From: a virus
IMG/VR virus record: IMGVR_UViG_3300048597_000384
Span: 1 to 54,046 of that record
Direction: 5' to 3' (one strand)
DNA: 54,046 nt
Shown here piece by piece: positions 640 through 48,469 of this stretch (its first letter is position 1; each line of letters starts with the position of its first letter). Both the position numbers and the translations under genes were made by a program. The notes beneath the pieces were generated by a model. The model did no database searches, was not told where the DNA came from, and saw nothing but the letters and a program-made list of their open reading frames with translations.

Positions 640-727
640 TGGCGGATGGGGTGGGATTCGAACCCACGAGGGGTTGCCCCCTGGCGGTTTTCAAGACCGC
701 TGCCATCGACCGCTCGGCCACCCATCC
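640..727 (-). tRNA. tRNA-Ser(UGA), intact, with its 5' half supplied by the prophage
   Basis: On the minus strand the seven-base acceptor arms pair perfectly (GGATGGG at 727-721 with CCCATCC at 650-644). The anticodon UGA is at 693-691 in a CTTGAAA loop. There is a long class II variable arm, a GTTCGAATC T-loop, discriminator G at 643 and an encoded CCA at 642-640. Bases 685-727, from the anticodon stem to the 5' end, recur at 48385-48427, so this half belongs to the attachment core. The gene stays complete, but its upstream DNA is now phage DNA. A UGA anticodon reads UCA, with no other decoder visible in this window. Confidence 0.93.
685..727. repeat. attL: left copy of the 43-bp attachment core
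   Basis: This 43-bp stretch matches 48385-48427 with one difference (G at 712, A at 48412) and the similarity ends sharply on both sides. The copies are 47,700 bp apart and enclose an integrase and a complete phage gene set. The repeated part is the 5' half of tRNA-Ser, whereas most tRNA-targeting phages duplicate the 3' part. Confidence 0.85.
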
Positions 728-742
728 TTCGCGCGCAAAGCC

Positions 743-771
743 TTACTAGGCGGGGCTCGCGCCCGTTTCAA
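743..771 (-). promoter_or_regulatory. phage-borne promoter of tRNA-Ser
   Basis: On the minus strand TTGAAA (771-766) and TAGTAA (748-743) are separated by exactly 17 bases, and the -10 box ends 15 bases before the tRNA 5' end at 727. The DNA lies inside the prophage, so the phage appears to carry a replacement promoter for the gene it splits. Confidence 0.55.
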
Positions 772-772
772 C

Positions 773-812
773 CTGTGCCGAACCGCTGCCGTCTGTGCCG
801 TGTTCTGTGCCG
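773..812 (+). repeat. three CTGTGCCG repeats, candidate integrase arm sites
   Basis: CTGTGCCG occurs at 773-780, 793-800 and 805-812, just inside attL. A fourth copy lies at 48271-48278, just inside attR. This placement fits arm-type binding sites of a tyrosine integrase; binding itself is inferred. Confidence 0.4.
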
Positions 813-1054
813 GGGCGTTCCGGGTCGAGGGCCAGGCGGATCCCTAGCCTGCGCCCGTTGGGCGGGGGCTGGCCGAAGTTGTCTGGCATGCTCGGCTCGG
901 GGACCCCAGGGCGCAGCGCGGGCGACCGGCCACTCAAGGATCTGCGCGCCGAGCTGATCGATGCGGCCTGTCGGAGCAACCCCAATAAGCGGCCGACGCT
1001 TATGGTTGCGCTTTCGCACTACCGTGAGTGGCTCGCCCGCGCTAGCGTCGCGGC

Positions 1055-1735
1055 ATGTGGGAGCGCATCAAAAAGATTGCGGCCGAGTGGGGCTCAAACC
1101 TCACGTTCGGCGATTACCTTATCCGCCTCGGGAGCGCTGGATTGTCTCTTGGCGGGGGCGGCATAATGAGTTGGGCCGCCTCAGTCACAGGCTGGCTCCA
1201 AGAATGGGGGCCGATTGCAACGGTAGCGGCCGGTGTGCTTGGCTCTTGTTTGGTTGCTCTGTCTCTGGCCATCATCTACGCTCTAGTCAGTTTTGGCCGG
1301 ATGAAGCGCGCTCAAGCGTCATACCACGATTTATTGGCATCGACTGCCCATACGGTAAATCCACTTGCTCGGGGGTTCTCCACTATGAAGATCAGCTTGG
1401 CTGATCTTCAAATACATCACTCTGCAGTGGACTTCCCGCAGCAAGATAAGATCTTTTCTGACTGTGTAATTGTGGGGCCTGGAACAATGGCTTTTTCTAA
1501 TTGCACACTTACCAATATAAAGTTTCCTATGTCAAATATTGCCAAATTCAACGGCTTTGGCCTATTCTTCCCGAACGTTTTCTTTCATAGATGTACCTTT
1601 GTGAATTGCACATTTCTCCACCTGACTCTGTTTATTCGTACGCAAGACGCGGAAAATTTCAGCATGGAATTTCCTGGGCTAAAGTTCACCGAGGAAGCGC
1701 AGCCTATCGAATTACCGGCGGAGGTGAGTAGGTAA
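1055..1735 (+). CDS. membrane protein of unknown function, accessory gene by attL
   Basis: This 226-residue protein belongs to no family I recognise. Two hydrophobic segments (about residues 26-48 and 53-80) suggest a membrane anchor. After about residue 110 come short units with regularly spaced F and C residues (FSDC, FSNC, FHRC, VNC) that look like a small beta-solenoid of the pentapeptide-repeat type. From about 1310 on, the DNA is clearly more AT-rich than its neighbours, a sign of separate acquisition. It stands alone between attL and the integrase on the opposite strand to the integrase, a usual place for lysogenic-conversion genes. ATG 1055 has only a weak ribosome binding site. A role in superinfection exclusion or cell-surface change is possible but unproven. 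Confidence 0.7.
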   Translation: MWERIKKIAAEWGSNLTFGDYLIRLGSAGLSLGGGGIMSWAASVTGWLQEWGPIATVAAGVLGSCLVALSLAIIYALVSFGRMKRAQASYHDLLASTAHTVNPLARGFSTMKISLADLQIHHSAVDFPQQDKIFSDCVIVGPGTMAFSNCTLTNIKFPMSNIAKFNGFGLFFPNVFFHRCTFVNCTFLHLTLFIRTQDAENFSMEFPGLKFTEEAQPIELPAEVSR

Positions 1736-1868
1736 GTCGCGGAAGATATCTGAGGCAGCTTCATTCACGCGCAGCCCACAGGTCCTGTGCCCTGCGCGAA
1801 AGTCAGATCAATCACGCGCCGCTGCCTGTAGGTTCACGCCATATGCTGTTTATTGTCAGCGCCGCTGC

Positions 1869-2873
1869 TCACGCCCCGGCCGCCAGGCGCTTGGCCGTGA
1901 CGGCTTCCTCGGGCGTGAGGAAGTCGAGGTAGAGCTCGGTGGTGGCGATGGTGCTGTGGCCCAGGATCTGCTGCAAGGCGTAGATCGAGCCGCCATCGCG
2001 CAAGTAGCGGACCGCGAACAGGTGGCGCAGGTCGTGGGTGCGGAAGGGCACGCCGGCGGCCTTCCTGAGCTGGTGCAGGTAGCTGGCGAGGTTGTGGTAG
2101 CGGTCCGCACCGCCGTCGCGGGTCGGGTGCCAGAAGACCCAGGCGCAGCCCAGCCTGCGGGGTGTGCCGTGAAGTGTGCCGGCGGCCGCCGGCGAGAGCG
2201 GCACGGAACGGGCCCGGCCGGTCTTGCTGCGCTCGACCTGCAGGGCAGCACGGTGCAGGTCGACCTGGCGCCAGCTGAGGCTTGCCGCCTCCTCGAGGCG
2301 CAGGCCGGTCTGCTCGAGCAGGCGCACCAGCGGGCGCAGGCGGGCGGGCAGGGAGCGGTGCAGCTGCTCGACCTGGTTGTCGGTGGGCAGCACGATCGGG
2401 TCGCGGCGCTCGCGGATCAGGCCGCGATCAAAGGCGCGCGCCGGGTTGGCCTGGAGCCACTCCCAGCCGACGGCCGCCTGCAGCACGGCCGAGACGGCGG
2501 TGAGGTCGCGGCGGCGGGTGGCGTTGGTGATACCGGGCCGGCCGGCGATGCGCGCCAGCACCTTGCGGTCGATCTCGTCCAGGTGCAGCGGGGCCAGGAC
2601 GTCGCCGGCGACCTTCAGGCTCGACAGGTAGCGGCGCAGCGTGGCCGGGCGCAGGGCAGCCAAGGCGACCTCGGCATGCCAGCGGACCACGGCTTCCTTC
2701 CAGGTCCGGCGCTCGTCGCCCCAGTCCGCCCTCTGCAGCCGCTCGAGCTCTGCCTTGGCCCGCTCGGCCGCTAGCTTGCGAACAGGCGTGCGTAGGCTGC
2801 GTCGATGCTCGCGACCGGCAATGGTGACGCGCAGCCACCAGACCTTGCCGCGCCGGTAGAGATGTTGCGGCAC
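1869..2873 (-). CDS. int: tyrosine recombinase integrase
   Basis: This 334-residue integrase carries out site-specific recombination between the phage and tRNA-Ser attachment sites. The N-terminus (about 1-50) is a basic arm-type domain, and 55-150 is the core-binding domain. The catalytic domain holds Arg192 (TGLRLEEAASL), the HDLRH motif (His280, Arg283), His306 (LGHS) and Tyr315 (TTELYLDF), so all key residues are present. Translation starts with GTG at 2873. The first 103 bases overlap the excisionase-like gene in another frame. It is the last gene of the leftward early operon and lies 1.1 kb from attL, as expected for the integrase that used this site. Confidence 0.93.
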   Translation of the reverse strand: MPQHLYRRGKVWWLRVTIAGREHRRSLRTPVRKLAAERAKAELERLQRADWGDERRTWKEAVVRWHAEVALAALRPATLRRYLSSLKVAGDVLAPLHLDEIDRKVLARIAGRPGITNATRRRDLTAVSAVLQAAVGWEWLQANPARAFDRGLIRERRDPIVLPTDNQVEQLHRSLPARLRPLVRLLEQTGLRLEEAASLSWRQVDLHRAALQVERSKTGRARSVPLSPAAAGTLHGTPRRLGCAWVFWHPTRDGGADRYHNLASYLHQLRKAAGVPFRTHDLRHLFAVRYLRDGGSIYALQQILGHSTIATTELYLDFLTPEEAVTAKRLAAGA

Positions 2874-3049
2874 CGGGCAGCCCTCCCCTCGGCATCCTCG
2901 ATCCAGCGTAGCACCGCGTCGCGGCGGAATGTCCAGAGCCGGCCCAGCCGGGCAGCGCTCGGGATCTCTCCGCGGGCCGCCATCTGCTGCACGGCGCGCT
3001 CGCCCAGGCCGGTGAGCTCGACCACCTCGGCGACGCGGATACGGGTCAC
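2771..3049 (-). CDS. AlpA/excisionase-like helix-turn-helix protein
   Basis: A protein of about 92 residues whose first 60 form a compact winged-helix domain of the MerR/AlpA excisionase type. The pattern is an ELTGLGERAVQQMAARGEIP helix-turn-helix, then a W-F-R-R-DAVLRWI segment. Such proteins bend DNA at attachment sites or regulate the integrase. I chose GTG 3049 because it overlaps the upstream stop (GTGA) and the domain begins there. Its last 33 codons overlap the integrase start in another frame, and that tail is low-complexity. Position and fold support an Xis role; function is inferred. Confidence 0.65.
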   Translation of the reverse strand: MTRIRVAEVVELTGLGERAVQQMAARGEIPSAARLGRLWTFRRDAVLRWIEDAEGRAARCRNISTGAARSGGCASPLPVASIDAAYARLFAS

Positions 3050-3216
3050 GACCCGCTCATCCTGCCGGCGAAGAAGGCGAGGGCGGCCAGGCCGACGATC
3101 GGGGCCACCGACCAGAAATCGAACCCGAACAGGTTGGCTACCGCCCCGGCAAGGAAGGCGTAGAGCACCGCCGCGACGATCGACATCGCTACGCACAAGT
3201 GGACGAGCTTCTCCAT
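3046..3216 (-). CDS. small membrane protein, 56 residues
   Basis: Two hydrophobic helices (about residues 5-25 and 30-50) separated by a short FGFDFW turn; no known family. ATG 3216 is chosen because the hydrophobic N-terminus starts there. The stop overlaps the start of the excisionase-like gene by four bases, implying translational coupling. It is one of several tiny membrane proteins in this leftward operon; holin-like or exclusion roles are possible but nothing in the sequence decides. Confidence 0.55.
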   Translation of the reverse strand: MEKLVHLCVAMSIVAAVLYAFLAGAVANLFGFDFWSVAPIVGLAALAFFAGRMSGS

Positions 3217-3229
3217 GGCCGTGCTCAGC

Positions 3230-3490
3230 TCACCATCTCTGTTGGGCGTCCCATTCGGCGATGTCGGCGGCGACGTCGGCCGAGAAGCGGAGCGGGGCAG
3301 GCACCGGCCCTGGGTCCTGGGCCGGTGCCTGGCGCGCGCGGCGGAGATCCTCGATCTTGCCGGCAAGGATGCCGAGCTGCTCGAGGATCTGGCCGCGGTG
3401 GAACGCGGGGTAGTCGGGGCCGGCCAGCTGGAGCCTGGTGAGCTCGCGGCCGACGTCGTCGAGGGCCTGCAGGTAGGGGTCGGCGCTCAT
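3230..3490 (-). CDS. hypothetical protein, 86 residues
   Basis: A mainly helical, acidic small protein of no recognised family. It contains a predicted amphipathic stretch (residues about 5-50) with a LEQLGILAGKIEDLRRAR core, then a proline-rich linker and a short C-terminal helix. The start at 3490 overlaps the upstream stop (ATGA); an ATG two codons earlier is also possible. It lies within the tightly packed leftward early operon, which is the main evidence that it is a real gene. Confidence 0.5.
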   Translation of the reverse strand: MSADPYLQALDDVGRELTRLQLAGPDYPAFHRGQILEQLGILAGKIEDLRRARQAPAQDPGPVPAPLRFSADVAADIAEWDAQQRW

Positions 3491-3912
3491 GGCCATGCCT
3501 TCATGATCCGGCCGCTGCCGATGTAGGGGAGGTCGTGCGGATGGCTGGCCGCGGCGGCGCCACCGGAGATGGGGCAGCGCTCGGGGTCCGTGGGTTTATC
3601 CGTGGGTTTATCCGTAAGTTTGTCCGGGGTTTTATCCGGGTCCGCGCCCATGTCCGCCCAGTCGGACGGCAGGGGCAGCGGCTCCGCCGCGAAGGCGTCG
3701 ATCGGCTCGACCACGGCCTCGAGCAGGCGGTCGTGGAGATGGGCCTCGGCCTGCTCGTAGATGCGGGTGCGCTCCGTGGCCGGGTGCTCGGGCTCGGCGT
3801 CGAGGCCAGCCCAGCACAGGACCAGCTCGATCGCCGCGGCGCCGATCGCCGCCTGCTGCCCGGGCGTGAGCCTGGCCCACTCGGCCGAGCCGGAGAGGGT
3901 GGGGCTGGTCAT
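3487..3912 (-). CDS. hypothetical protein with a DKxTDKPTD repeat, 141 residues
   Basis: The first 80 residues look globular and helical. Then comes a low-complexity segment in which D-K and P-T pairs repeat (about residues 91-108), encoded by four imperfect copies of a TTTATCCG-type unit near 3593-3640 on the plus strand. The C-terminus is glycine- and histidine-rich. No family is recognised. The start and stop overlap both neighbours by four bases (ATGA), so it is translated as part of the chain. The repeat is a place where copy number could change by slippage. Confidence 0.55.
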   Translation of the reverse strand: MTSPTLSGSAEWARLTPGQQAAIGAAAIELVLCWAGLDAEPEHPATERTRIYEQAEAHLHDRLLEAVVEPIDAFAAEPLPLPSDWADMGADPDKTPDKLTDKPTDKPTDPERCPISGGAAAASHPHDLPYIGSGRIMKAWP

Positions 3913-4169
3913 GCGACGGGTGCTTCGGCGGCGAGCGCGGCGCGGATGGCGTCCCGGCTCATCCGCAGCGCAGCCACAGTCGGCGCCGGCAGGCCTTGGC
4001 AGATGTCATAGAGCGCGCAATCGACCGCCAGGTTGACGCCCTCGGGTGCCACCAGCTCGCGGCCGGCCCGGGCGGCAAACTTCGGGGTGAGCTTCTCGGC
4101 CAGCCAGTCGCCGCCGATCGCCTTGAAGCGCTCGCGGAGGGTGTCCTGGTCGGCAACGGTGATCATCAT
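3909..4169 (-). CDS. hypothetical protein, 86 residues
   Basis: A small protein with a conserved-looking body: an N-terminal helix (DTLRERFKAIGGDWLAEKL), a middle with single cysteines, and a C-terminal helix. I chose the paired ATGs at 4169/4166 because the upstream extension is basic and unstructured. The stop overlaps the next gene (ATGA). A 180-base gap separates it from the gene upstream, so an internal promoter or processing site may lie between them. Function unknown. Confidence 0.5.
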   Translation of the reverse strand: MMITVADQDTLRERFKAIGGDWLAEKLTPKFAARAGRELVAPEGVNLAVDCALYDICQGLPAPTVAALRMSRDAIRAALAAEAPVA

Positions 4170-4195
4170 CGGTTGGCGCTCTCGCTTGGTGGGGT

Positions 4196-4217
4196 GCCGG
4201 GTTCCTCTCAACCCGGC
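4196..4217 (-). terminator. inverted repeat in the only gap of the leftward operon
   Basis: A perfect 8-bp stem (GCCGGGTT at 4196-4203, AACCCGGC at 4210-4217) with a six-base loop lies in the gap 4170-4350. There is no T tract, so it may attenuate transcription or stabilise the transcript end rather than act as a simple terminator. Confidence 0.3.
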
Positions 4218-4350
4218 GAAGTCACGGTGCTGGGTGGGCCCGACTTACACGGGCTGGCGCGATCACCGTTTCGCGCGCGGCGGCTTTCCCTTTTGCGTGG
4301 TAGGTGCCCGCCGCAGCCGTCTCCACCTCGGACGCCCTCGCGGGCGAAGC

Positions 4351-4692
4351 TCATCGGTTCGCAAGCTCCAGCAGCACGTCGGCGTGGCACGGCTGGTGCA
4401 GCGAGCACCAGCAGGCGAGATCCTTGCCGCGCAGGTCCTTCAGGCAGGTGCGGGCCCAGTCGCCCCAGGCCCAGTGCAGGGTGTCGGGGTGGGCGTTCTT
4501 CGCGAACTGCACCGTGTCGGGGCCGCACGAGATCCGGACGGGGCCTGGTCCGATCAGCTGGCGGTACGCCTCGACCGCGAGGTCGGGCTTGCCGACGAAG
4601 GGGTTGCCCCACCTGGTGGGCCGGCCGACATAGACCGCACCCTCGGGCATCCGCCAGCCCTTGGCCCGACTGCGCTGGATCCGCTCAGCCAT
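4351..4692 (-). CDS. DUF4326 domain protein
   Basis: This 113-residue protein has the hallmarks of DUF4326, a family common in phages: a VYVGRPTRWGNPF motif near residue 20, then a central WAWGDWAR segment and a C-terminal CWC(S)LHQPCHADVL motif with cysteine and histidine residues. The length matches the family. The biochemical role of DUF4326 is not established; the conserved Cys/His set suggests metal or nucleotide handling, which is inference. Its start overlaps the preceding gene's stop by eight bases in the leftward early operon. Confidence 0.85.
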   Translation of the reverse strand: MAERIQRSRAKGWRMPEGAVYVGRPTRWGNPFVGKPDLAVEAYRQLIGPGPVRISCGPDTVQFAKNAHPDTLHWAWGDWARTCLKDLRGKDLACWCSLHQPCHADVLLELANR

Positions 4693-4972
4693 GGCCGGGC
4701 TTCCTTTCGATGCCGGAGCGGATCAGGTGCTGACCCATCTCGTCGGCCACGCGGCCGGCGATCCGGCGCAGCATGGGGCGCCACTCGTCATGGGTGCCGC
4801 CGCTCACGACCTGGATGCCGTGGTCGGTCATGACGATGCAGGCAAAGCCGGCGATGTCGGCAGCCTTGGCTTCGCTGCCCACGACGCGGGCGAACAGCTC
4901 GAGCCGCTCGCCGAAAGCGGTCCTGGCCTGCTCGGGCGTGATGACGGGCGGGGACACGGGTTCATCGGCCAT
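4685..4972 (-). CDS. hypothetical early protein, 95 residues
   Basis: A mostly helical protein of unknown function. A hydrophobic centre (GFACIVMTDHGIQVVSGG) is followed by a basic helix near the C-terminus, giving a compact alpha/beta impression. ATG 4972 is preferred over ATG 4987 because it overlaps the upstream stop as TGATG and has a GAGG ribosome binding site six bases away. The same TGAGGCGCTGATGG initiation block precedes the next gene upstream. Confidence 0.5.
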   Translation of the reverse strand: MADEPVSPPVITPEQARTAFGERLELFARVVGSEAKAADIAGFACIVMTDHGIQVVSGGTHDEWRPMLRRIAGRVADEMGQHLIRSGIERKPGHG

Positions 4973-5118
4973 CAGCGCCTCAGCCATCGCTTGATCAGAA
5001 AGTGAATGGCGCCCGTCGCCGCGAGCTGTGGCCAGGGCCAGAGCCACCAACCGGACAGGCCGCCCAAGCCAAGCAGGACAAAGGTTCCGCCGGCGATCTG
5101 CAGGAGCTTCGGTCCCAT
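4972..5118 (-). CDS. small membrane protein, 48 residues
   Basis: One long or two short hydrophobic helices rich in G, W and L, with the cluster GWWLWPWPQL at the turn and a basic RWLRR tail, which suggests an inner-membrane protein with a cytoplasmic C-terminus. It overlaps the downstream gene (TGATG) and the upstream stop (TGATG), and shares a 14-base initiation block with its downstream neighbour. Family unknown. The packed overlaps are the best evidence that such a short frame is used. Confidence 0.5.
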   Translation of the reverse strand: MGPKLLQIAGGTFVLLGLGGLSGWWLWPWPQLAATGAIHFLIKRWLRR

Positions 5119-5216
5119 CAGCGCCTCACCACGAACAGGAGGAACAGGGCGACGCCGGCGACGAGCTCGACCAGGGCGGTGGCGGCGATCACCAGGAGGG
5201 TGGGGTCGGGGCTCAT
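5118..5216 (-). CDS. tiny membrane protein, 32 residues
   Basis: A single transmembrane helix occupies almost the whole peptide (about residues 7-29) and ends in Arg-Arg. ATG 5216 overlaps the upstream stop by four bases and its own stop overlaps the next start (TGATG). Because of its size I rely on the coupling pattern and the clean hydrophobic profile. The function is not known. Confidence 0.45.
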   Translation of the reverse strand: MSPDPTLLVIAATALVELVAGVALFLLFVVRR

Positions 5217-6169: not shown

Positions 6170-6528
6170 GAGAAGAACTGCCACCAGGCGGCCGCGCCCA
6201 GGAGGCAGGCCAGGACCAGCCACAGCCCGCTGCCGGCGGCACGCTCGCCGGCGCCGAGCGGGCGGTCGCCGTCTTCCTCCTCGCCCTGGTCGTGCGGGCC
6301 GGCGTAGAGCCCGTGCACCGCGAGGTTCATGACCGCGTCGTCGACGGCGGCCTGGGCGGTGGCGTGGCTGCCGCTGTCGAGCAGCGGGCCGCTGCGGCCG
6401 TGGATGGCGGCGACGTAGCCGGCGCCGGGCCGGTACTCCAGCGACCAGGCCGTGTCGCCCGGCAGCTCGGCGAGCTCGACCCGGTTGCCCGGGCCGGGCC
6501 TCGCCTTGTGGATGTGCGTAACGCTCAT
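6166..6528 (-). CDS. hypothetical early protein with a C-terminal membrane anchor
   Basis: 120 residues. The soluble N-terminal part (about 1-85) has repeated hydrophobic-turn patterns. An acidic EEEDGD patch follows, then a single hydrophobic helix (about residues 100-117) ending in W-W-Q-F-F-S, which suggests a tail-anchored membrane protein. Its start region (VTHIHK and the ribosome binding site) is a near copy of the start region of the preceding gene. The start overlaps the upstream stop (ATGA). Function unknown. Confidence 0.55.
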   Translation of the reverse strand: MSVTHIHKARPGPGNRVELAELPGDTAWSLEYRPGAGYVAAIHGRSGPLLDSGSHATAQAAVDDAVMNLAVHGLYAGPHDQGEEEDGDRPLGAGERAAGSGLWLVLACLLGAAAWWQFFS

Positions 6529-6851
6529 TTCGCGCCCCGCTGGCTGGCAGGGTGAGGTTGGCAATAGATCACCGCGCCGCCCTTGGTGATCACCAGCTCT
6601 TCCCAGTCGGTTTCGAAGCTGTAGGTTTCCGTGAGGTCGCGGAAGCGCACCCGGATCGAGTCCGGCTCGTCCACGAACACCTTTCGACCGTTGAAGCCGC
6701 GCAGAGGCCTCTGCAGGCTGGCGGCATCGACCCGCCCCGGTCCGGGCAATACGGCGACGGCCGTCATCGCGAGCCCTTGCAGGACCAGCCGGCGGCGCGG
6801 CCCCACGGCCTTCGCCGCGGCACTCACCTTGTCGATGTGGGTAACGTCCAT
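6525..6851 (-). CDS. first gene of the leftward operon, possible Tat-exported protein
   Basis: 108 residues. After a short polar N-terminus (VTHIDK) comes an arginine cluster and hydrophobic segment (PRRRLVLQGLAM at about 18-29, then AVAVLPGPG), which resembles a twin-arginine signal peptide. The mature part is small and charged and contains a VRFRDLTETYSF strand pattern. ATG 6851 follows a GGGGGCG ribosome binding site and lies about 24 bases from the predicted start of the leftward promoter. Family unknown; export by Tat is inferred from the motif only. Confidence 0.5.
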   Translation of the reverse strand: MDVTHIDKVSAAAKAVGPRRRLVLQGLAMTAVAVLPGPGRVDAASLQRPLRGFNGRKVFVDEPDSIRVRFRDLTETYSFETDWEELVITKGGAVIYCQPHPASQRGAK

Positions 6852-7427: not shown

Positions 7428-7817
7428 CTATCGAGTAATCGCTCTATGTCTCGGCGCAGTCAGTGCTTGCAGTAGCTCATTGTTCTGCTGCAGTAGCGCG
7501 CGTTGGTCATTCATCAACGCGCGGATGTCCTGTAGAACGGAAAGAACTATCTGCAGGTCATTGCTCGCGCGGGGCGTCGCATTGTCGCCGGTACCGGGGG
7601 ACCTTTCGTCTCCATCCTGGAGAAGCTCGGGGATGGAAATGCCTTCCGCGTCCGCCAGCTTTTCTAGGGTGCGGGCCGTGATCGAGCGGTTGGGTTCGTT
7701 GAGGAAGGTCGCAAGGGTGTTCTCGGACAAGCCAGCACGGGCCGCCCATGGATACGGCTTCAGGTCCTTGCGCTTCATGTAGGCCCTGAGCCGGGTGCGA
7801 ATGAACTCCGGTGTCAT
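7428..7817 (-). CDS. immunity repressor (XRE/CI-like, no peptidase domain)
   Basis: 129 residues. The N-terminal domain (about 5-62) is a Cro/CI helix-turn-helix with PWAARAGLSENTLATFLN as the HTH. The C-terminal half (about 85-120) is a glutamine- and leucine-rich coiled coil, probably the dimerisation part. The S24 autoprotease domain of lambda-type repressors is missing, so induction by RecA-driven self-cleavage is not expected. ATG 7817 is two bases from the operator at 7819-7834, which covers the region where its ribosome binding site should be, pointing to autoregulation. It shares the site set with the Cro-like gene at 7908. Confidence 0.8.
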   Translation of the reverse strand: MTPEFIRTRLRAYMKRKDLKPYPWAARAGLSENTLATFLNEPNRSITARTLEKLADAEGISIPELLQDGDERSPGTGDNATPRASNDLQIVLSVLQDIRALMNDQRALLQQNNELLQALTAPRHRAITR

Positions 7818-7818
7818 G

Positions 7819-7895
7819 CCGCATTTTTGTGAGCTGGCATCGATGCCAGCAACCTCATCGTTGTGAGCCCCATTGCAAACCTCAAAAGAATGAGG
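7819..7895. promoter_or_regulatory. right operators: three 16-bp palindromes
   Basis: CCGCATTTTTGTGAGC (7819-7834), CCTCATCGTTGTGAGC (7853-7868) and CCTCAAAAGAATGAGG (7880-7895) share CC(T/G)CA-N6-TGAG(G/C) with the left operators. Three sites between the divergent repressor and Cro-like genes repeat the layout of lambda OR1-OR3. Confidence 0.75.
7833..7850. promoter_or_regulatory. 18-bp perfect palindrome between two operators
   Basis: GCTGGCATCGATGCCAGC is its own reverse complement and does not match the operator consensus. It lies between the operators at 7819 and 7853, so a second regulator may bind here. Confidence 0.5.
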
Positions 7896-7901
7896 TAAGC
7901 G
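7873..7901 (+). promoter_or_regulatory. rightward early promoter with operator in its spacer
   Basis: TTGCAA (7873-7878) and TAAGCG (7896-7901) are 17 bases apart, and the operator 7880-7895 fills the spacer. Transcription would begin close to the ATG at 7908, leaving almost no leader. Confidence 0.55.
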
Positions 7902-7907
7902 GGCTCG

Positions 7908-8141
7908 ATGAGCGTGAACGCCACCCTCCAGCACATCCGTGGGCGCCTGCTGAGCAGCGGCCTGCCGCTCCGGCGCGTCGCACAGGAAGCCGAACTGGCC
8001 GAGAACACCGTGGCGAAGGTTGCCAGGGCCAGCCCCAGGGTCACCGTCGACACGCTGCGCCGTATCGAGCGCGTTCTGGATCGTCTCGCATCCGAGCCCG
8101 CTGAGAGCGCCCCCAGCGCGAGCAGCGACAGTGTCCAATAG
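7908..8141 (+). CDS. Cro-like helix-turn-helix regulator
   Basis: 77 residues, with the HTH at about 19-52 (RRVAQEAELAENTVAKVARA) and a serine-rich tail. It is transcribed rightward, divergently from the repressor, as the first gene after the right operators, which is the Cro position. No clear ribosome binding site precedes ATG 7908, and the -10 box ends only six bases upstream, so the message may be leaderless. It probably binds the same operators to favour lytic growth; this is inferred from position and fold. Confidence 0.8.
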   Translation: MSVNATLQHIRGRLLSSGLPLRRVAQEAELAENTVAKVARASPRVTVDTLRRIERVLDRLASEPAESAPSASSDSVQ

Positions 8142-8292
8142 CTTCCCCCGCGCGTTGCGCCGTGCTGGCCGATCGTGTGCTGTGGGGAGAGGCGTCGTTG
8201 CCACGACACGTAGCTTGGGCTCGGCCGTTCGGCCAGCCTTGCCGTCGCCCAATCCCGGCGAAGTGACGGGAAAGGCCGCTCGCTGATGCAGC

Positions 8293-8535
8293 ATGGTCTC
8301 ACCAGCGGCCGCCGCAGCGTTGTCGATCGCCAACCGTGGAAATCTACGGTTCTTCGTGCGCACGATTGCCTCCGCCTTATGGTTGTTCTGTCGCACGCCT
8401 TGGGCTGTGAAATCGTTTTTCTCGTTCTACTCCGCGGCTACAGCCTGCCGCGCACCTCGTGCGCCCGGCAAGTCGGTTCATGTGGCGGCGACGTGCTACC
8501 AAAAGGTTATCCATTCACTCCGGAGGGGTGCGTGA
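8293..8535 (+). CDS. doubtful small protein, 80 residues
   Basis: The frame starts at ATG 8293 with no convincing ribosome binding site. It encodes an alanine-rich N-terminus, a hydrophobic, phenylalanine-rich centre (FVRTIASALWLF, then KSFFSFYSAAT) and a basic C-terminus. A lambda cII-like regulator would normally be sought at this position, but no helix-turn-helix is visible. It may be a small membrane protein or no gene at all. Confidence 0.22.
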   Translation: MVSPAAAAALSIANRGNLRFFVRTIASALWLFCRTPWAVKSFFSFYSAATACRAPRAPGKSVHVAATCYQKVIHSLRRGA

Positions 8536-17531: not shown

Positions 17532-18065
17532 TTGGAGGTGCCCGCGAACGGGCGCCGCCTGGTGCGCAAGTCGGCCTTCGCCAAGCTCCGCGGCTGGTCG
17601 CCGGCCAACGTCACCAAGCTCACCAAGCCCGGCGGCAAGCTCGCCGAGGCCGTCACCCCCGAGGGGCTGCTCGACCTGGACCTCGCGGAGCGGCTGCTGG
17701 CCGCCCGAACCAACCCGGCGCGGGTGCCGGTGGCGGCCGGCGCGCTGCCGGAGCTGGCGGGGCCGAGCTTCGCCGACGCCAAGACCCGCCGGGCCCTCGC
17801 CGACGCCGAGGCCGCCGAGATCAACCTGCAGCGGATGCGCGCCCGGCTGGTCGAGGTCGAGGGCGTGCGCCAGGCCGGGGCCGACTTCGGCGCCCTGCTG
17901 CCGCAGCTCCTCGAGGAGGGGCTGGTCGACGCGGTTGCCCGGATCCGGCAGGCCGCCACCACGGCCGACGCGACCAAGCTGGCCAAGCCCGTGGCCCTGG
18001 CCCTGTGCGCGCGGATTGTCCAGGAGCTCGAGCGCACGGTGCGCGAGGTGGCCGCCGATGCGTGA
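17532..18065 (+). CDS. terS: terminase small subunit
   Basis: 177 residues. The N-terminal HTH-like region (RRLVRKSAFAKLRGWSPANV) and the long helical oligomerisation segment (LADAEAAEINLQRMRARLVEVEG) match the lambda Nu1-type small subunit that recognises the packaging site. The start is uncertain: TTG 17532 has no ribosome binding site, whereas CTG 17517 in the same frame has a GGAGGG seven bases upstream and would add TQLPL-type residues. Its stop overlaps the large subunit start by eight bases. Confidence 0.8.
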   Translation: MEVPANGRRLVRKSAFAKLRGWSPANVTKLTKPGGKLAEAVTPEGLLDLDLAERLLAARTNPARVPVAAGALPELAGPSFADAKTRRALADAEAAEINLQRMRARLVEVEGVRQAGADFGALLPQLLEEGLVDAVARIRQAATTADATKLAKPVALALCARIVQELERTVREVAADA

Positions 18066-20142
18066 CCTAGCGCGTGCCGGCTACGCCGCCTTCCTGCTCG
18101 CGATCGCCGCCTCGGCCAAGCCGGCGCCGGCGCTGTCGGTCTCGGAGTGGGCCGCCCAGGAGCGCGAGGTCGCGGCCGAGAGCGGCTCGCCCTACCCGGG
18201 CAAGTGGGACAACGAACGGGTGCCCTACCTCGTCGAGGTGATGGACACCTGCGGCATGGATCACCCGGCCCGCTCGGTGGCGATCCTGGCCTCGGCCCAG
18301 TCGGCGAAGTCCGAGGCCGTCCTGAACGCGATCGGGCACACCATCTGCCAGAACCCGGTCCCGATCCTGGTGATGCTGCCGAGCCTGGACGAGGTCAGCA
18401 AGTACAACGCCCACAAGCTCCAGGTCGCGATCGACGCCACGCCGGCCCTGCGGGTCCGCGTGAAGGAGACCGTGACCCGCGACGAGACCGGCTCGACCAC
18501 CAGCTTCAAGCGTTTCCGCGGCGGCTACCTGCGGATCGTCAACGCGGGCAGCTCCAAGGCCCTGCAGATGATCTCGGCCGCCTACCGGGTCTACGAGGAG
18601 CCCACCGGCTATCCCCTGGACGTCGACGGCCGCGGCGACCCGATCAGCCAGGCCGATGCGCGCTCGAAGGCCTGGAAGGAGCGCGGCGAGAAGGCGATCC
18701 TGGTGGGCACGCCCGGCACCAAGGGCCAGTGCCGCGTGTCGGCCGCCTACGAGGCCTCCGACCAGCGGCGCTGGTACGTGCCGTGCCCGCACTGCGGCGC
18801 CTACCAGGTGCTGCTGCCGCAGAACCTGCACCAGGTCGCCGACAAGCCGCCGCACGGCGCCTGGTTCGCCTGTGCGGCTGCCGGGTGCGTGATCGAGCAG
18901 GCCGACAAGGCGGCGATGGTCGCCCGTGGCGCCTGGATCCGCACCTATGCGAGCGAGGATGCGGCGAACCCGGCCCCGCCCGAGCACTTCCCGGCCGCCG
19001 ACCTGGCCCGCTGGGTCGAGCGGGGCCCGGAGCACCGCCAGCCTGGCTTCGCCTGGTGGCAGGCCTACAGCCCGTTCGTCTCCTGGGACGACACCGTGGC
19101 CGAGCGCCAGGCGGCCGAGGGCGACCCGCGCAAGCTCAAGGTGCTGTGGCAGCAGGCCTATGGCGAGGCCTGGGAAGAGCAGGGCGAGGCGCCGGACGCC
19201 GAGCGGCTGCTCGAGCGGCGGCAGAAGTGGCAGGCGGGCCGGATCCCGGCGGGCGTGCTGTTCCTCACCGGCGCCGTGGACGTCCAGGGCGACCGCCTGG
19301 AGTGGGCGGTCTATGGCTGGGACCGGCACCTGGCCGGCTACCACGTCGCCCGTGGCGTGATCGAGGGCGACCCGAACCTGGCCGGGCCGTGGCAGGTGCT
19401 CGACGAGCTCGTGACGCGCCGGTTCCAGGACGCCTGGGGCAAGACCTGGCCGGTCGACGTCTGGGGCGTGGACTCCGGCTTTCTGAGCCAGACGGTCTAT
19501 CGCTGGGCGCTGCGCCACGCGCACACCGGCCGCATCCGGGCACTCGACGGACGCTCCGGCTGGAAGCTGCCGGCGATCGGCACGCCCAAGACGATCGACG
19601 TCGACTGGGACGGCCGCAAGCTGGGCGCGGTGCAGCTCTGGCCGGTCGGCACCTGGGACCTGAAGAGCGAGCTCTACGGCAAGCTGCGGATGACGCTGAA
19701 GGGCCCGGACGATACCGGCGCCTGGCCGCGCGAGTGCATGTGGTTCGGCGAGAGCTGCGACCGCGGCTTCTTCGAGCAGCTCACGGCCGAGTTCCTCACC
19801 GACGTCGAGCGCCGCTCGGGCTACGTCGAGAAGGCCTGGGTGAAGATCAAGGGCCGGCGGAACGAGCAGCACGACCTGGCGGTCTACGCGCTAGGCCTCG
19901 CCCGCCATGCGAGCGACCCGCTCACCGATGGCGACTGGGCGCAGCTCGAGCAGCAGCGGCTGGGTCCGGCGGCCGAGGCGCAGCTCGACCTGGCCGCGAT
20001 CTGGGCGCCCGGCCTCGCCAGCGAACACCCCACCGTGAAAGTGCCGGCTGGGGTGGTACCGCCTCAGCCGGCCACGGTCGCCACAGGCTCGGGCGAAGAG
20101 CAGGGCGCCCGACGCCGCGTGATCCGGTCGAGCTATCTCTGA
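18058..20142 (+). CDS. terL: terminase large subunit (GpA type)
   Basis: 694 residues, the size of the lambda gpA family. The packaging ATPase region is near the N-terminus (ASAQSAKSE as a degenerate P-loop at about 79-87). Then come a PCPHCGAY zinc motif and the C-terminal nuclease domain, where TGAVDVQGDRLEWAVYGW supplies the usual aspartate. It cuts concatemeric DNA and drives it into the capsid. ATG 18058 is placed inside the small-subunit gene, and its stop overlaps the next start (TGATG). Confidence 0.93.
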   Translation: MRDLARAGYAAFLLAIAASAKPAPALSVSEWAAQEREVAAESGSPYPGKWDNERVPYLVEVMDTCGMDHPARSVAILASAQSAKSEAVLNAIGHTICQNPVPILVMLPSLDEVSKYNAHKLQVAIDATPALRVRVKETVTRDETGSTTSFKRFRGGYLRIVNAGSSKALQMISAAYRVYEEPTGYPLDVDGRGDPISQADARSKAWKERGEKAILVGTPGTKGQCRVSAAYEASDQRRWYVPCPHCGAYQVLLPQNLHQVADKPPHGAWFACAAAGCVIEQADKAAMVARGAWIRTYASEDAANPAPPEHFPAADLARWVERGPEHRQPGFAWWQAYSPFVSWDDTVAERQAAEGDPRKLKVLWQQAYGEAWEEQGEAPDAERLLERRQKWQAGRIPAGVLFLTGAVDVQGDRLEWAVYGWDRHLAGYHVARGVIEGDPNLAGPWQVLDELVTRRFQDAWGKTWPVDVWGVDSGFLSQTVYRWALRHAHTGRIRALDGRSGWKLPAIGTPKTIDVDWDGRKLGAVQLWPVGTWDLKSELYGKLRMTLKGPDDTGAWPRECMWFGESCDRGFFEQLTAEFLTDVERRSGYVEKAWVKIKGRRNEQHDLAVYALGLARHASDPLTDGDWAQLEQQRLGPAAEAQLDLAAIWAPGLASEHPTVKVPAGVVPPQPATVATGSGEEQGARRRVIRSSYL

Positions 20143-42274: not shown

Positions 42275-42311
42275 GCGTGCCGATGCCCGCGACGGTGGAC
42301 TGGAGCCAGCA

Positions 42312-43673: not shown

Positions 43674-43725
43674 TGGTCCCCGGGATCCCGGCGGTCGCCG
43701 GCGCAGGCCGTGTGAGGAGCTGCCG

Positions 43726-44955
43726 ATGCCGTCGCTGATGCAGTGGATGGTGCTCCGGGGCAATCGAGCGGGGCAGGGCGGCGGTGCCCCCGCCCAGGCT
43801 GTGCCGCCCGAGCTGCTGACCCTGCTGCCCAACGGCGGCGCCTACAACCGCCGCGCCCAGCCGCGCTCCTATGCCCTGCCCGACGGTACGGAGGTCGTGA
43901 TCGGCGACCTGGCCGCCGTCGCGCGCCAGCAGGATCTGCTGCTCAATCCATTCGGCGCGCGCAGCGCGCACCACCGGCCGATCGGGCGGGGTGCGGTGAA
44001 GGGCATCCCGGGCACCACCGGTCCGGCCACGCGCGGGCGGCTCGACGTGGTGGGCCGGATCCGCATCCCGAACGCGGCCGACCTGGGCAAGTGGTATTAC
44101 CGGGCGCTCGACGGCGACGACCCGCGCAGCATCACTTCCAGCGGCAGCGGCATCGGCCTGCCCTCGAACGAGAAGATGCCGGCCGGGGTGTTCTACCCGG
44201 ATTCGAGCGACGGCGACTGCATCGTCATCCGTCCGGCGCCGAGCGTGACGGCCGACGCCTGGTATCAGTTCCGAGACGCCGCCAGCACGGCCTCGATCCG
44301 CCGGACCTACACGGTCGACGGCGACGACCTCCCCTGGACGGACGGCCAGGACCGGGGCAACAGCGCCTCGAAGCTGCGCTTCCCGGCGGCCTGCCTGTTC
44401 GCGGACCAGCTCAACCTGGCGAACCCGCCGCCGCAGCGTTACGCGCTGCACCTGACCGCGACGCGGCACGACGGCCAGGGTGCCAACAGCTCGATCCACG
44501 TGCTCGGCAAGACCTGGGTCGCCCCCGCGCTGGGCACGGACGGCGACGCCGGTGACGAGGATCGAAACCTCGGCAACATTCCTTACGGGACCAGGATCTG
44601 GTTGCCTTGGGACGCGCCGTGGCAGGACCTGCGGGAACTGTCCGGCTTCAACCAGCGCCAGAAGGTCTACTTCGACATCTGGCGCCTCTACGGCGCCTAC
44701 ATCCTGGACGGGCAGGGGCAGCACGAGGAAGGCAAGGCAATCCTGCAGCTTCGGCAGACCGGCGGGCTCACGACGGAGGTCATCGCCGAGCTCGAAGCCG
44801 TGCACGCGGTGATCCTCCCTTACCTATGGCCGATGCGGAACGCCCCGGCCTCCTTCACCGACGCCAGCGAGACCTGGGCCGACGGCCTGCCCTACGCCGG
44901 TGGCGACGGCCCGCTCGGCCCGGAATCCATCAACTCCGCCTGGGATGCCCGCTGA
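43726..44955 (+). CDS. adhesin 3 with shared C-terminal domain
   Basis: 409 residues. After a short hydrophobic-basic start it carries the same C-terminal domain as the proteins at 37318 and 42312: NLGNIPYGTRIWLPW, FDIWRLYGAYILDGQG, LPYLWPMRNAP and the ending DGPLGPESINSAWDA. Sequence identity is much higher at these motifs than elsewhere. ATG 43726 has GAGGAG upstream. The stop overlaps the next start (TGATG). Confidence 0.65.
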   Translation: MPSLMQWMVLRGNRAGQGGGAPAQAVPPELLTLLPNGGAYNRRAQPRSYALPDGTEVVIGDLAAVARQQDLLLNPFGARSAHHRPIGRGAVKGIPGTTGPATRGRLDVVGRIRIPNAADLGKWYYRALDGDDPRSITSSGSGIGLPSNEKMPAGVFYPDSSDGDCIVIRPAPSVTADAWYQFRDAASTASIRRTYTVDGDDLPWTDGQDRGNSASKLRFPAACLFADQLNLANPPPQRYALHLTATRHDGQGANSSIHVLGKTWVAPALGTDGDAGDEDRNLGNIPYGTRIWLPWDAPWQDLRELSGFNQRQKVYFDIWRLYGAYILDGQGQHEEGKAILQLRQTGGLTTEVIAELEAVHAVILPYLWPMRNAPASFTDASETWADGLPYAGGDGPLGPESINSAWDAR

Positions 44956-46289
44956 TGGCGATCTACTTCGTCGATCCCGCCGCCGCCGGCGCGAACAACG
45001 GGACCTCCTGGGCCAACGCCTGGACCGGCATGGCGACGGCGCGCGCCGCCTACACGACCCCGACGCCGGGCGACGAGTTCAAGGTCGCCTACACGCTCAA
45101 CGAGACGCTGGCGGCGGCCATGGCTTTCGCGCCCAACGGCTCGGGATCGAACCGCGGCATCCGCTTCACGTCGACCGATCCGGCGAATGATGCCTACCGC
45201 GCCGGTGCCAAGCTCGTCACCGCCGGCTACACCCTGGACCTGTTCGGCCTGGTCGAAGGCTTCACGCTCGACGGCTCGACGTCCGCGGCGCACCTGAACG
45301 TGCGGCCGGGCAACGGTGCCGAGTTCTTCGATTGCACCTTCGTCAAGCAGCCCGGCTACTCTTTTCAGATCGCCGGGACCAGCAATCAGCGGGGCGCGGT
45401 GCGCCAGTGCCTGTTCGACCAGGGCGCCGGCTACACGGCGCCGTGCTTCACGACGAACACCGGGTTCGTCGACCTCGAGCTGTTCAACTGCGTCATGGGC
45501 GGCACGATCGGCGCCACGGCTTCGCTGGTGGCGCAGACCACCAGCTCGGCGTCCGGCCGGTTCCGCTTCGTCAACTGCGACCTGCACGGCTTCACGTCGA
45601 TCCTGGACCAGGCCGCCGGCAGTGCCAACGGCACCCTCGACGTACGGATCGAAGGCGGCCTGGAGCCGGCGAGCTTCGAGGCCGAGGCGGGCAATGGCGA
45701 CCTGCTGCTGCGCAAGGGCTCGCGGCTGGTCATGATCGGCTCGGGCAACGGCACGCTGGCCGCACCGGTGACCAAGCGCACCTATTGGGAGCACTTCGGC
45801 AAGGCCGGGATCCAGTCCACGGTCTACCGCAGCGGCGGCGGCCATGACGGCACCACGCCGCAGGCCTGGGCGGTCTCGGCATGGGCCAACCGCACCTGGC
45901 CGCGCTCGCGGCACGGTATCATCGTGCCGGTCGTCTCGGGCGGCTGGGCGGCCAAGGACCGGGTGACCACGGCGCGCATCTTCTTCGCGCACAGCGGTGC
46001 GGCGCTTACCAATGACGATCTCAGCTTCCGGCCCTACACGCCGAGTAACGCCACGCCGCCGACGGCGCTGCTGTTCACGGCCAACGCCGGCGGCCTGCGC
46101 GGTGCCGCCGCTGCCGCCTACCCGACCGACGCGGCCTCGACCTGGGGCGGCGGGCCCACGGTCAAGCAGTACGCGGACGTCGAATTCACGCCCACGATCT
46201 CCGGCCCGGTGGCGGGCGAGGTGATGTTCCACCCGGGCGGGGCGTCGGATCGCACCATCTACCTCGACGCGCAGATCGTCCTGATCTGA
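44955..46289 (+). CDS. beta-helix tail protein
   Basis: 444 residues, starting at ATG 44955 (TGATG overlap). The first 300 residues read as a right-handed beta-helix: short repeated strands with Gly/Asn turns, for example FVDPAAAGANNGTSWANA and FNCVMGGTIGATASLV. The C-terminal 120 residues form a beta-rich domain (DVEFTPTISGPVAGEVMF). Such folds are common in tailspikes that bind or cut polysaccharides; no catalytic residues could be assigned. It is the last gene of the late operon. Confidence 0.65.
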   Translation: MAIYFVDPAAAGANNGTSWANAWTGMATARAAYTTPTPGDEFKVAYTLNETLAAAMAFAPNGSGSNRGIRFTSTDPANDAYRAGAKLVTAGYTLDLFGLVEGFTLDGSTSAAHLNVRPGNGAEFFDCTFVKQPGYSFQIAGTSNQRGAVRQCLFDQGAGYTAPCFTTNTGFVDLELFNCVMGGTIGATASLVAQTTSSASGRFRFVNCDLHGFTSILDQAAGSANGTLDVRIEGGLEPASFEAEAGNGDLLLRKGSRLVMIGSGNGTLAAPVTKRTYWEHFGKAGIQSTVYRSGGGHDGTTPQAWAVSAWANRTWPRSRHGIIVPVVSGGWAAKDRVTTARIFFAHSGAALTNDDLSFRPYTPSNATPPTALLFTANAGGLRGAAAAAYPTDAASTWGGGPTVKQYADVEFTPTISGPVAGEVMFHPGGASDRTIYLDAQIVLI

Positions 46290-46302
46290 TGTCGCGGACG
46301 GC

Positions 46303-46500
46303 TCACCTGGTCAGCCGGATCGCGATCAGCAGCACCGCGAAGCCCAGCACCAGGCTGCCCAGCATGAGCGGCCAGTCGGCGGGGCTCAGCGAGAGCATCC
46401 CAACCTGAAATATCAGCGCAGCAGCAGCGAGCGCTATTGGTAGTTTCTGCACGGTTCCCTCGGCGCGGTTTCTTGGGGCGCCAGGGCGGAGCCTGGTCAT
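46303..46500 (-). CDS. reverse-strand small membrane protein at the end of the late operon
   Basis: 65 residues from ATG 46500 (or 49 from GTG 46452), with two hydrophobic helices (PIALAAAALIFQVGML and LMLGSLVLGFAVLLIAI). It runs opposite to the late genes and ends 14 bases after their last stop, in a less GC-rich stretch. It resembles the other isolated reverse gene (28324-28491) in size and topology, though the sequences are not alike. A moron gene is likely; the function is unknown. Confidence 0.5.
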   Translation of the reverse strand: MTRLRPGAPRNRAEGTVQKLPIALAAAALIFQVGMLSLSPADWPLMLGSLVLGFAVLLIAIRLTR

Positions 46501-46512
46501 GAGGCGGCCGGG

Positions 46513-46938
46513 GTGGCGGAAAGTCAAGGCGTGAGGGCGTGCAAGCTCTGTGCGCGGATCGCCGACTGTTCGCCGCTGCTCGAGCTGTTTCTTTCCGGCT
46601 ACGCTTTGCTGTTCGCGGTGGTGCTGGTCCTGCATCCAAGCCTGATGGCGGAGAGCCGGGCCTGGTCCGAGATGCTGGTCTGGGCACCGCAATGGGCCTG
46701 GGCGGCGGCGTTCCTGGCGGTGGGCCTGCTCAAGGCCCTGGCGCTCCTGCTGGTCCGGCCGCGGCTGCAGCTCGCGGCCCTGGGTGCCGGCGTGGCGCTG
46801 TGGACCCTGGTGGCCTACGGCGTCGGCTTCCAGCCCGAAGCGCCCAGCTTCGCGCGCTACGTCTACGGCTACTACGCGTTCGGGTCGTGGGTGTGCGCCT
46901 GTGCCGTGGCCTGGCACATGGGTGCCCGGCATGTTTGA
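46513..46938 (+). CDS. four-helix membrane protein, possible second holin
   Basis: 141 residues with about four hydrophobic helices (about 24-43, 56-76, 80-98, 112-136) and a GTG start at 46513. The N-terminal part has cysteines (CKLCARIADC). Its topology would suit a holin or a membrane conversion protein. It overlaps the following gene by eight bases, so they form a pair. Family not recognised. Confidence 0.55.
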   Translation: MAESQGVRACKLCARIADCSPLLELFLSGYALLFAVVLVLHPSLMAESRAWSEMLVWAPQWAWAAAFLAVGLLKALALLLVRPRLQLAALGAGVALWTLVAYGVGFQPEAPSFARYVYGYYAFGSWVCACAVAWHMGARHV

Positions 46939-47353
46939 GGCCTGGACGCTCGACAGCCTGTGGAAGGCCCTGGGCATCCTGGCGCTGTTCGCCGGGCCGA
47001 CGGTCACCTGGCTGATCGCGCGGTCGTCGCGGCAGTCGTCGATCGACGAGGCGCGCAACGTGGCCAACCGCGAGGCCTTCGAGATCGGGGCCAAGATGCG
47101 CGACGAGCTGCGCGTCGAGATGATCCGCCTGTCGACCGAGGTGAAGCGGCAGGAGAAGGAGATCGAGGGCCTGCAGGTGCAGCTCGGCGAGGCGAAGGAG
47201 ACGCTCGCCCGCGAGAGCGGCCACTGGGAGGCGTTCAAGGCGATGTGGTGCCCGAAGGCCGACTGCCCGGTGCTGCTGCGCCGCCAGCCGATCTGGGACG
47301 GCGTCGAGCGGCGCGAGCGCGATCCGGCGCCCCCGCGGCAGCCGCCACGCTGA
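46931..47353 (+). CDS. membrane-anchored coiled-coil protein
   Basis: 140 residues. One N-terminal helix (about 8-30) is followed by a heptad-like coiled coil (VEMIRLSTEVKRQEKEIEG) and a C-terminal CPKADCP motif with a proline-rich tail. The shape resembles an i-spanin or a phage DUF1515-like membrane protein. It overlaps the upstream membrane protein and may act with it. Position near attR allows a conversion role instead. Confidence 0.55.
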   Translation: MFEAWTLDSLWKALGILALFAGPTVTWLIARSSRQSSIDEARNVANREAFEIGAKMRDELRVEMIRLSTEVKRQEKEIEGLQVQLGEAKETLARESGHWEAFKAMWCPKADCPVLLRRQPIWDGVERRERDPAPPRQPPR

Positions 47354-47483
47354 GGCCGCGCCCCGCCATGCACAGGACATGCAGGTGATCTGAGTCCGGC
47401 CCCGCGGCCGGTTCTCCGGCTGCTGCCCGCCCCGGTCGGCGATCGCTCGCCGGGCCCATCGGAGCCCAGATCCCAGACGGAAG

Positions 47484-48260
47484 ATGCCTGCAATGCTCAG
47501 GATCCTGCTGCTGCTGCTCGCGGCCATGGTCTTCGCCAATGCGGCCCAAGCCGCGAACGTGACCCTCCTCTTCGTCTACAGCCCGGGCGCTCGCGACAAG
47601 ATGAACGCCTATGCCGGCAGCGTCTCGCAGTGGACGAAGCTGGCGCTCGAGCAGCTGAACCGGGCGCACTCGATCAGCAACACCGGCCAGACCGTCTCGC
47701 TCTCGCAGAACGCCGCCGGCACTTGGTCGAGGAAGCTGCTCACCAACTACGTCAAGGCGCCGGCCGGCGCTCCGCAAGGTGACAGCCTCGGTAATGATCT
47801 CGTGCGTCTCCAGGCCGATGGCGACGGCTACATGGACAAGGTCCACGAGTGGCGCGACGAATACGCTGCCGACGTGGTGATCGGCGTCTTCGACTACAGC
47901 CCCGGCGAGTTCAACACCGGGCAGGCCTGGGTCCAGGGTACGGACTTCGCCGACGAGGCCTTCCTGGTGGTCGACGTCGACCGGGCGATCGCCATCGGCG
48001 ATCTGATCCTCGGGCACGAGATGGGGCACCTGTACGGCTGCGCGCACGAGAGCGCCGCGATCAGCTCGCGTGGCTATTGCGAGCCGGGCAACCAGTGGCA
48101 CGATCTTATGGCGATCAGCTGCCCGAACGTGTTCTCGACCCGGCTGAACTTCTGGTCGGCCAACATCTCGATCGTCGGCCGGGGGATGATCGGCGACTTC
48201 ACACACAACTGTGCGGCCGCGATCCCCTACTTCTCCAACCGCATGAGCACGTTCCGCTAG
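47484..48260 (+). CDS. secreted metzincin-type zinc metalloprotease
   Basis: 258 residues with an N-terminal signal peptide (cleavage expected after AQA, residue 23). The zinc site is HEMGHLYGCAH at 178-188, the HExxHxxGxxH pattern of metzincins, with His178, Glu179, His182 and His188. A methionine that could be the Met-turn is at 209. Two cysteine pairs suggest disulphides. It is the last gene before attR, separate from the late operon, with GGAAG upstream of ATG 47484. Lysogenic-conversion cargo acting outside the cell is likely; the substrate is unknown. Confidence 0.8.
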   Translation: MPAMLRILLLLLAAMVFANAAQAANVTLLFVYSPGARDKMNAYAGSVSQWTKLALEQLNRAHSISNTGQTVSLSQNAAGTWSRKLLTNYVKAPAGAPQGDSLGNDLVRLQADGDGYMDKVHEWRDEYAADVVIGVFDYSPGEFNTGQAWVQGTDFADEAFLVVDVDRAIAIGDLILGHEMGHLYGCAHESAAISSRGYCEPGNQWHDLMAISCPNVFSTRLNFWSANISIVGRGMIGDFTHNCAAAIPYFSNRMSTFR

Positions 48261-48270
48261 CCCTGCCGGG

Positions 48271-48278
48271 CTGTGCCG
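48271..48278 (+). promoter_or_regulatory. fourth CTGTGCCG copy near attR
   Basis: Identical to the three copies beside attL and located 107 bases inside attR. It may be an integrase arm site. Confidence 0.35.
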
Positions 48279-48384
48279 CCGGCCGCTCCGCTGCCGGCGT
48301 CGCTCCGTTCGCCTGATGCGTTAGACGCGCTGCCGGAAAGTCAGGGATCGCCTGGGTTTCGGGCTTCCGGCCGCGATCTCTGCC

Positions 48385-48427
48385 CGGTTTTCAAGACCGC
48401 TGCCATCGACCACTCGGCCACCCATCC
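48385..48427. repeat. attR: right copy of the 43-bp attachment core (orphan tRNA-Ser 5' half)
   Basis: The copy contains only the 5' half of tRNA-Ser and cannot make a tRNA. The single difference from attL is in the D-arm (GAGTGG here, GAGCGG in the intact gene). Confidence 0.85.
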
Positions 48428-48441
48428 GTCCCGGCCGACCT

Positions 48442-48469
48442 GAGATAGCATGGCTGCATCTCTCCGCAA
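48442..48469 (-). promoter_or_regulatory. likely original promoter of tRNA-Ser, now disconnected
   Basis: On the minus strand TTGCGG (48469-48464) and TATCTC (48447-48442) are 16 bases apart, and the box ends 14 bases before the orphan half gene. It would now transcribe only the tRNA fragment and prophage DNA. Confidence 0.4.

Follow-up and report, generated by a model that had tools for sequence, protein, structure and literature searches.

A siphovirus-like prophage with the 5′ half of a host tRNA-Ser(UGA) gene at its integrase-side end

A prophage that sits in a tRNA gene and repeats part of that gene at its two ends raises two questions: which copy came with the phage, and what does the lysogen then owe to phage DNA? 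Most integrases that use tRNA genes carry the 3′ half, so the promoter of the gene stays untouched. In the window analysed here, a 54,046-nt stretch that is an IMG/VR virus record (IMGVR_UViG_3300048597_000384), the repeat covers the 5′ half of tRNA-Ser(UGA). Between the repeats lies a siphovirus-like prophage, whose genes include an integrase, a repressor-like HTH protein, an endolysin and a replication helicase/primase, as well as a structural and packaging set of GpA-type terminase, portal, protease, major head protein, tape measure and tail fibre J. The features of the two ends and the main prophage genes are listed below (coordinates and strand in the window; L003 is a related phage contig described in the next section).

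640–727, minus: intact tRNA-Ser(UGA) gene (ARAGORN; Rfam tRNA, 57.4 bits), a hybrid of a host 3′ half and a phage 5′ half
640–684, minus: 3′ half of the tRNA, of host origin and not part of the repeat, missing from the L003 attP and from the right end
685–727, minus: phage-borne 5′ half of the tRNA, within the repeat; its counterpart in the L003 attP is at 6492–6536
1869–2873, minus: tyrosine integrase, 334 aa (PF00589, 2.5e-24; phrog_1, 4.2e-52)
7428–8396, minus: HTH_26 / phage repressor-like protein (profile matches)
17935–20142, plus: large subunit of the prophage's GpA-type terminase (profile matches)
48272–48384, minus: P′ arm of attP, ~90% identical in L003, with one CGGCACA at 48272–48278
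48385–48427, minus: orphan host 5′ half of tRNA-Ser(UGA), within the repeat, which folds as a full tRNA-Ser together with 640–684

The repeat, the attP of a free relative and the empty site

The repeat is direct (685–733 and 48385–48433; 49 nt, 94% identity) and consists of tRNA nucleotides 1–43 plus 6 nt of 5′ flank, which bears out the initial annotation in its claim that the repeat spans the anticodon to the tRNA 5′ end. The gene on the minus strand at 640–727 is the sole tRNA gene of the 54-kb window by ARAGORN and Rfam, and neither program finds a complete second tRNA of the same isotype there. A search for the 43-nt half over the whole record returned two sites and no third copy, while a control pattern gave 0 matches. 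The displaced 5′ fragment (48385–48427, minus) lies upstream of the intact gene and shares its orientation; the integrase gene adjoins the tRNA-side att site and is on the same strand as the tRNA. Since the two copies are perfectly identical over 685–711 and differ at 712, the lone mismatch inside the half (C on the phage side and T on the host side, tRNA sense), the exchange can be placed in that part of the gene which encodes the anticodon arm. We infer a crossover, and its exact point, within 685–711, on the anticodon-arm side. Just beyond the tRNA 3′ end (415–573, minus) there is also a ~40-aa remnant of the N-terminus of another integrase, a 59% match to a Porphyrobacter plasmid integrase, which is probably what is left of a second, now decayed island that flanked this tRNA on its opposite side.

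The polarity of the two ends can be read from L003 (IMG/VR 3300044825_002279), a phage contig of 64 kb that encodes an integrase 89–90% identical to that of the window. L003 6396–6536 aligns to window 685–824 and L003 6492–6651 to window 48270–48427, and the window ends, when joined by script, align to L003 over >250 bases. Judged by these alignments, the L003 junction is an attP with the tRNA 5′ half on its integrase side. This second half-carrying phage is a single metagenome contig, and a search of viral contigs for further attP arms gave no match beyond it.

The two phages also allow the carried half to be compared. The 5′ halves of the window and L003 are separated by 7 substitutions and a 2-nt insertion, with all seven acceptor bases unchanged and all ten stem pairs kept; in the D stem, GCC/GGC has given way to CCG/CGG, with both sides of two pairs altered. 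When 7 random substitutions were introduced, the ten pairs were kept in 1.2% of trials, and in 0.04% with two such swaps. The phage-borne half looks like functional sequence rather than debris, and may be either maintained as part of a tRNA or exchanged with another tRNA-Ser. Stem pairs were counted here instead of using ARAGORN, which is too lenient as a constraint test of the L003 half (73% of random variants pass).

On the host side, attB was reconstructed by joining the orphan 5′ half to the host 3′ half; the result is recognised as tRNA-Ser(UGA) with native upstream DNA before it. We searched with this sequence in the class Alphaproteobacteria and then in one order, thereby approaching the host via tRNA identity. 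The comparison with uninserted relatives that the initial annotation had suggested is provided by genome G402, whose single tRNA-Ser is uninterrupted and 98% identical to the reconstructed attB. A homologue of the terminase at 48699–50258 lies within ~60 bases 5′ of this tRNA-Ser, followed by the same tail A/B genes. G402 is a different species with a different 3′ neighbour of the tRNA, so the match covers the right side and the tRNA; we found no strain pair with and without this very prophage. As the same terminase stands directly 5′ of the whole tRNA of G402, the right flank of the window is the native upstream neighbour of the gene. The L003 attP and the G402 empty site together therefore give a lysogen tRNA composed of a phage 5′ half and a host 3′ half, in agreement with the earlier proposal that the intact gene receives its 5′ half and upstream DNA from the phage. 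The expectation that uninserted relatives would read GAGTGG in the D-arm did not hold: the nearest one, G402, reads GAGCGG. Because the base in question varies among 12 relatives (C in 6, T in 5, G in 1), GAGTGG is not diagnostic of the host copy and was discarded as its marker.

Upstream DNA, transcription and excision

With the phage 5′ half comes a new upstream region, which contains the following elements.

743–748, minus: −10-like TAGTAA, 15 nt before the tRNA; the L003 counterpart is TATGTG
766–771, minus: −35-like TTGAAA, conserved in L003; spacer 17
774–780, 794–800 and 806–812, minus: three CGGCACA, which probably serve the integrase as arm-type sites in the P arm; the pair recurs in most integrase relatives
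48464–48469 and 48442–48447, minus: weak native promoter-like box TTGCGG-N16-TATCTC, beside the orphan half

We scored promoter-like boxes by position weights over the 60 bases that precede the tRNA and compared them with shuffles. At the phage end of the window, TTGAAA-N17-TAGTAA scores 11.6, a value reached by 0.2% of shuffles (p 0.002), and in L003 TTGAAA-N17-TATGTG scores 10.9, reached by 0.4% (p 0.004). The corresponding figures are 3.2 and 7.8% for TTGCGG-N16-TATCTC on the native side, and 3.6 and 9.2% for TTGTGG-N18-TATGCC at the same place in the G402 empty site. The box described at the right distance inside the phage is thus confirmed and is promoter-like in both phages. The stranded host box, also described beside the orphan half, is present at its native place but weak, and the phage-brought box looks stronger. 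The spacer length of 17 is kept in both phages while the spacer sequence has diverged, and the −10 hexamers agree with the consensus at just 3/6. A generic promoter scan with stricter hexamer rules and a terminator scan listed nothing on either side. The stretch that separates the resident terminase from the native tRNA box contains a long imperfect inverted repeat (CTCCGCAAG ... CTTGCGGAG) at 48460–48530.

Pairs of CGGCACA 12 bases apart occur near the integrase gene or attP in most family members, against a chance expectation of 0 in the window. Their position, spacing and recurrence suggest that they are arm-type integrase sites. Because the −35 TTGAAA abuts the CGGCACA at 774–780, its conservation may belong partly to integrase binding. 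A second pair, CGGCACA-N5-CGGCACA, lies within the integrase gene (window 2163–2181, minus; L003 4856–4874; L009, a Methylosinus prophage, 6686–6704), and its recurrence in relatives may reflect coding constraint or a real arm site.

We infer that the tRNA of the lysogen is transcribed from the phage promoter-like box. Read-through from integrase-side phage transcripts could produce it instead: the integrase gene is upstream on the same strand, the stretch of L003 from the integrase to the tRNA half can be read as codirectional genes, and the hexamers of the box do not come close to consensus. However, in the window an opposite-strand open reading frame (1055–1735) lies in between, and the box stands well above shuffles in both phages, which have the 17-nt spacing in common and a diverged spacer. 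We regard read-through as an unlikely source of the transcript.

Does the lysogen then become addicted to the prophage? The initial annotation had coupled prophage loss to tRNA supply, and such a loss might be thought to deprive the cell of tRNA-Ser(UGA), since the copy of the lysogen relies on phage DNA and the gene is probably single-copy. Of 22 genomes of the family with a match, 19 have just one, and the additional matches in the remaining three are only 77–81% alike. But precise excision gives back a complete tRNA-Ser behind native upstream DNA, so no addiction follows, and empty relatives live with the native arrangement. Harm would come only from a deletion of the left end without recombination, as with any tRNA-integrated element. 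We therefore hold addiction to be very improbable.

The favoured course of integration would run as follows. The tyrosine integrase of a temperate phage recombines attP with an attB that lies in the anticodon arm of tRNA-Ser(UGA). On its integrase side, attP carries probable integrase arm sites, the promoter-like box and then tRNA nucleotides 1–43. Integration fuses this 5′ half to the host 3′ half and so gives an intact tRNA with nothing but phage DNA upstream of it, and the displaced 5′ half and promoter of the host are stranded as an orphan at the opposite end. The TTGAAA-N17 box would presumably drive transcription of the tRNA, and presumably do so adequately, until precise excision gives the native gene back. 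The geometry, the attP and the empty site in relatives, and the restored tRNA can all be read from the sequences, and we put the probability of the whole account (a 5′-half-carrying attP, a rebuilt hybrid tRNA, an orphaned host half and no addiction) at roughly 0.88.

The repeat alone cannot tell the ends apart, and would equally allow the intact tRNA to be untouched host DNA with the right-hand half belonging to the phage. This reverse assignment is contradicted from both sides, as the 5′ half in the L003 attP is on the integrase side and is preceded by DNA that aligns to 728–824, and the empty site of the relative puts the right-flank terminase directly before tRNA-Ser; we consider it extremely improbable. 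A chance repeat or chimeric assembly, conceivable in a virus record of probably metagenomic origin, has a negligible likelihood, because the junction logic recurs in an independent contig and, at another tRNA, in a cultured isolate.

The resident T7-like cluster on the right flank

The prophage end beside attR contains an M12-type metallopeptidase gene (47484–48260, plus), at whose place L003 encodes a different protein with glycine/aspartate-rich repeats. Beyond attR, the flank consists of a resident cluster of phage-derived genes rather than plain host sequence.

48699–50258, minus: resident T7-like terminase (phrog_38), in synteny with uninserted relatives, marking the host side of attR
48699–54046, minus: resident T7-like cluster in the window; loci elsewhere are L074, L075, L083 and L126–L145

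The cluster is ~10 kb long, with the order HTH-like protein, small protein, T7-type connector (PF12236), scaffold (PF05396), major head protein, phrog_18004, tubular A, tubular B, small protein and TerL. Some twenty genomes with sufficient sequence share this order, the head protein being identified in G404 only. The gp8-like connector, tubular A/B and phrog_38 TerL match the T7 type. One gene-sized relative of the terminase, at 49–59% identity, is found in each of 28 of the 31 species of the host order (counting one species in which it is split in two pieces), and across the Alphaproteobacteria 52 species in a sample of 385 have a single copy. The cluster stands beside tRNA-Ser(UGA) in the window and in six genomes (G402, G404, G403, G423, G400 and G424). 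The second, T7-like terminase had raised the idea of a tandem second prophage on the right, which we rejected because relatives with an empty site also have the cluster next to tRNA-Ser, and because it is single-copy throughout the order.

In the flanks examined, one family profile detected no integrase-family relative near the cluster, and the neighbours in G404 are ordinary transporters and enzymes. The dN/dS values of close pairs (0.11–0.39) indicate purifying selection, and a peptide-pattern search of viral contigs found no relatives of the terminase. The cluster looks like a domesticated, vertically inherited phage module and is a candidate for a T7-/podovirus-type element resembling a gene transfer agent (GTA). 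The recognised GTA families (Rhodo-, Barto- and Brachygtaviriformidae) were described from RcGTA, BaGTA and BhGTA (PMC9662315), and we found no T7-like or podovirus-like GTA in the literature searched. This apparently domesticated cluster may outweigh the tRNA finding in importance.

Carriers of either half and known systems

Integrases ~40% identical to that of the window, in Methylosinus sp. Ce-a6 and Sm6 (prophages L009 and L011) and in viral contigs, use the same tRNA-Ser(UGA) with the same integrase orientation and the same CGGCACA arm sites. The Methylosinus-type prophages differ in that the phage gives the 3′ half and the host promoter stays: an orphan 3′ half is left next to the integrase, and the intact gene is found at the integrase-distal end. 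In G427, which has a 51% relative, the adjoining lone 3′ half reads as tRNA-Ser with the anticodon GCU. On the other hand, a related integrase adjoins an intact tRNA-Thr(UGU) in Ancylobacter polymorphus DSM 2457 and in a Bosea MAG, and in both the orphan 5′ half sits on a separate contig (loci L010, L014, L157, L158, L163 and L164); they are therefore 5′ carriers. A further contig (L006/L027), with a lone 5′ half of tRNA-Ser(GCU), was entered in the tree as a putative 5′ carrier. In the integrase tree the 3′/5′ label needs at least two changes, enforced by well-supported branches. A lone tRNA-Ser(UGA) 5′ half with no 3′ half was also observed in a 68.8-kb viral contig (L107; IMG/VR 3300001605_000032, 116–158), with a distant tyrosine-recombinase match 8 kb off (L146, 8259–9446); this contig is possibly a further 5′ carrier.

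The novelty here looks to be lability, with one integrase family holding both 3′- and 5′-half carriers through at least two switches. A small literature search found no paper on polarity switching within one integrase family. One may speculate further, as a doubtful extension, that the lineage flips its half repeatedly and that 5′ carriers add a stronger promoter whose −35 abuts the arm sites, so that lysogeny would raise tRNA-Ser(UGA) supply and integrase binding could tune it according to the state of the phage. In any case, attP, attB and both junctions of a 5′-half carrier are all readable here. Both solutions exist at the same gene in the same orientation, so a flip of attP polarity can be tested directly, as can the cost or gain of swapping the promoter of a host tRNA. 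Island scans that assume 3′ fragments would overlook such elements.

The 5′ form is uncommon and already catalogued: among the 3919 islands of Islander, the fragment is a 3′ one in 3760 and a 5′ one in 159 (PMC4383910), and this prophage is one of the latter minority in form. It resembles the 5′-fragment islands of Islander in its tyrosine integrase, its anticodon-centred site, and the intact tRNA at one end with a displaced 5′ fragment at the other (PMC4383910). It differs in that the attP of a free relative, a promoter-like box and an empty site are seen together, and in that 3′-carrying members of the same integrase family are found at the same tRNA. A second parallel is the tRNA-dependent lysogeny of actinobacteriophages, where the lysogen likewise needs phage DNA for an essential tRNA (PMC10865867). 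There, however, the core is ~10 bp and the tRNA is not rebuilt, a whole phage tRNA gene being brought instead (PMC10865867), whereas in the prophage of the window a 43-nt half rebuilds the host gene and the hybrid folds as tRNA-Ser.
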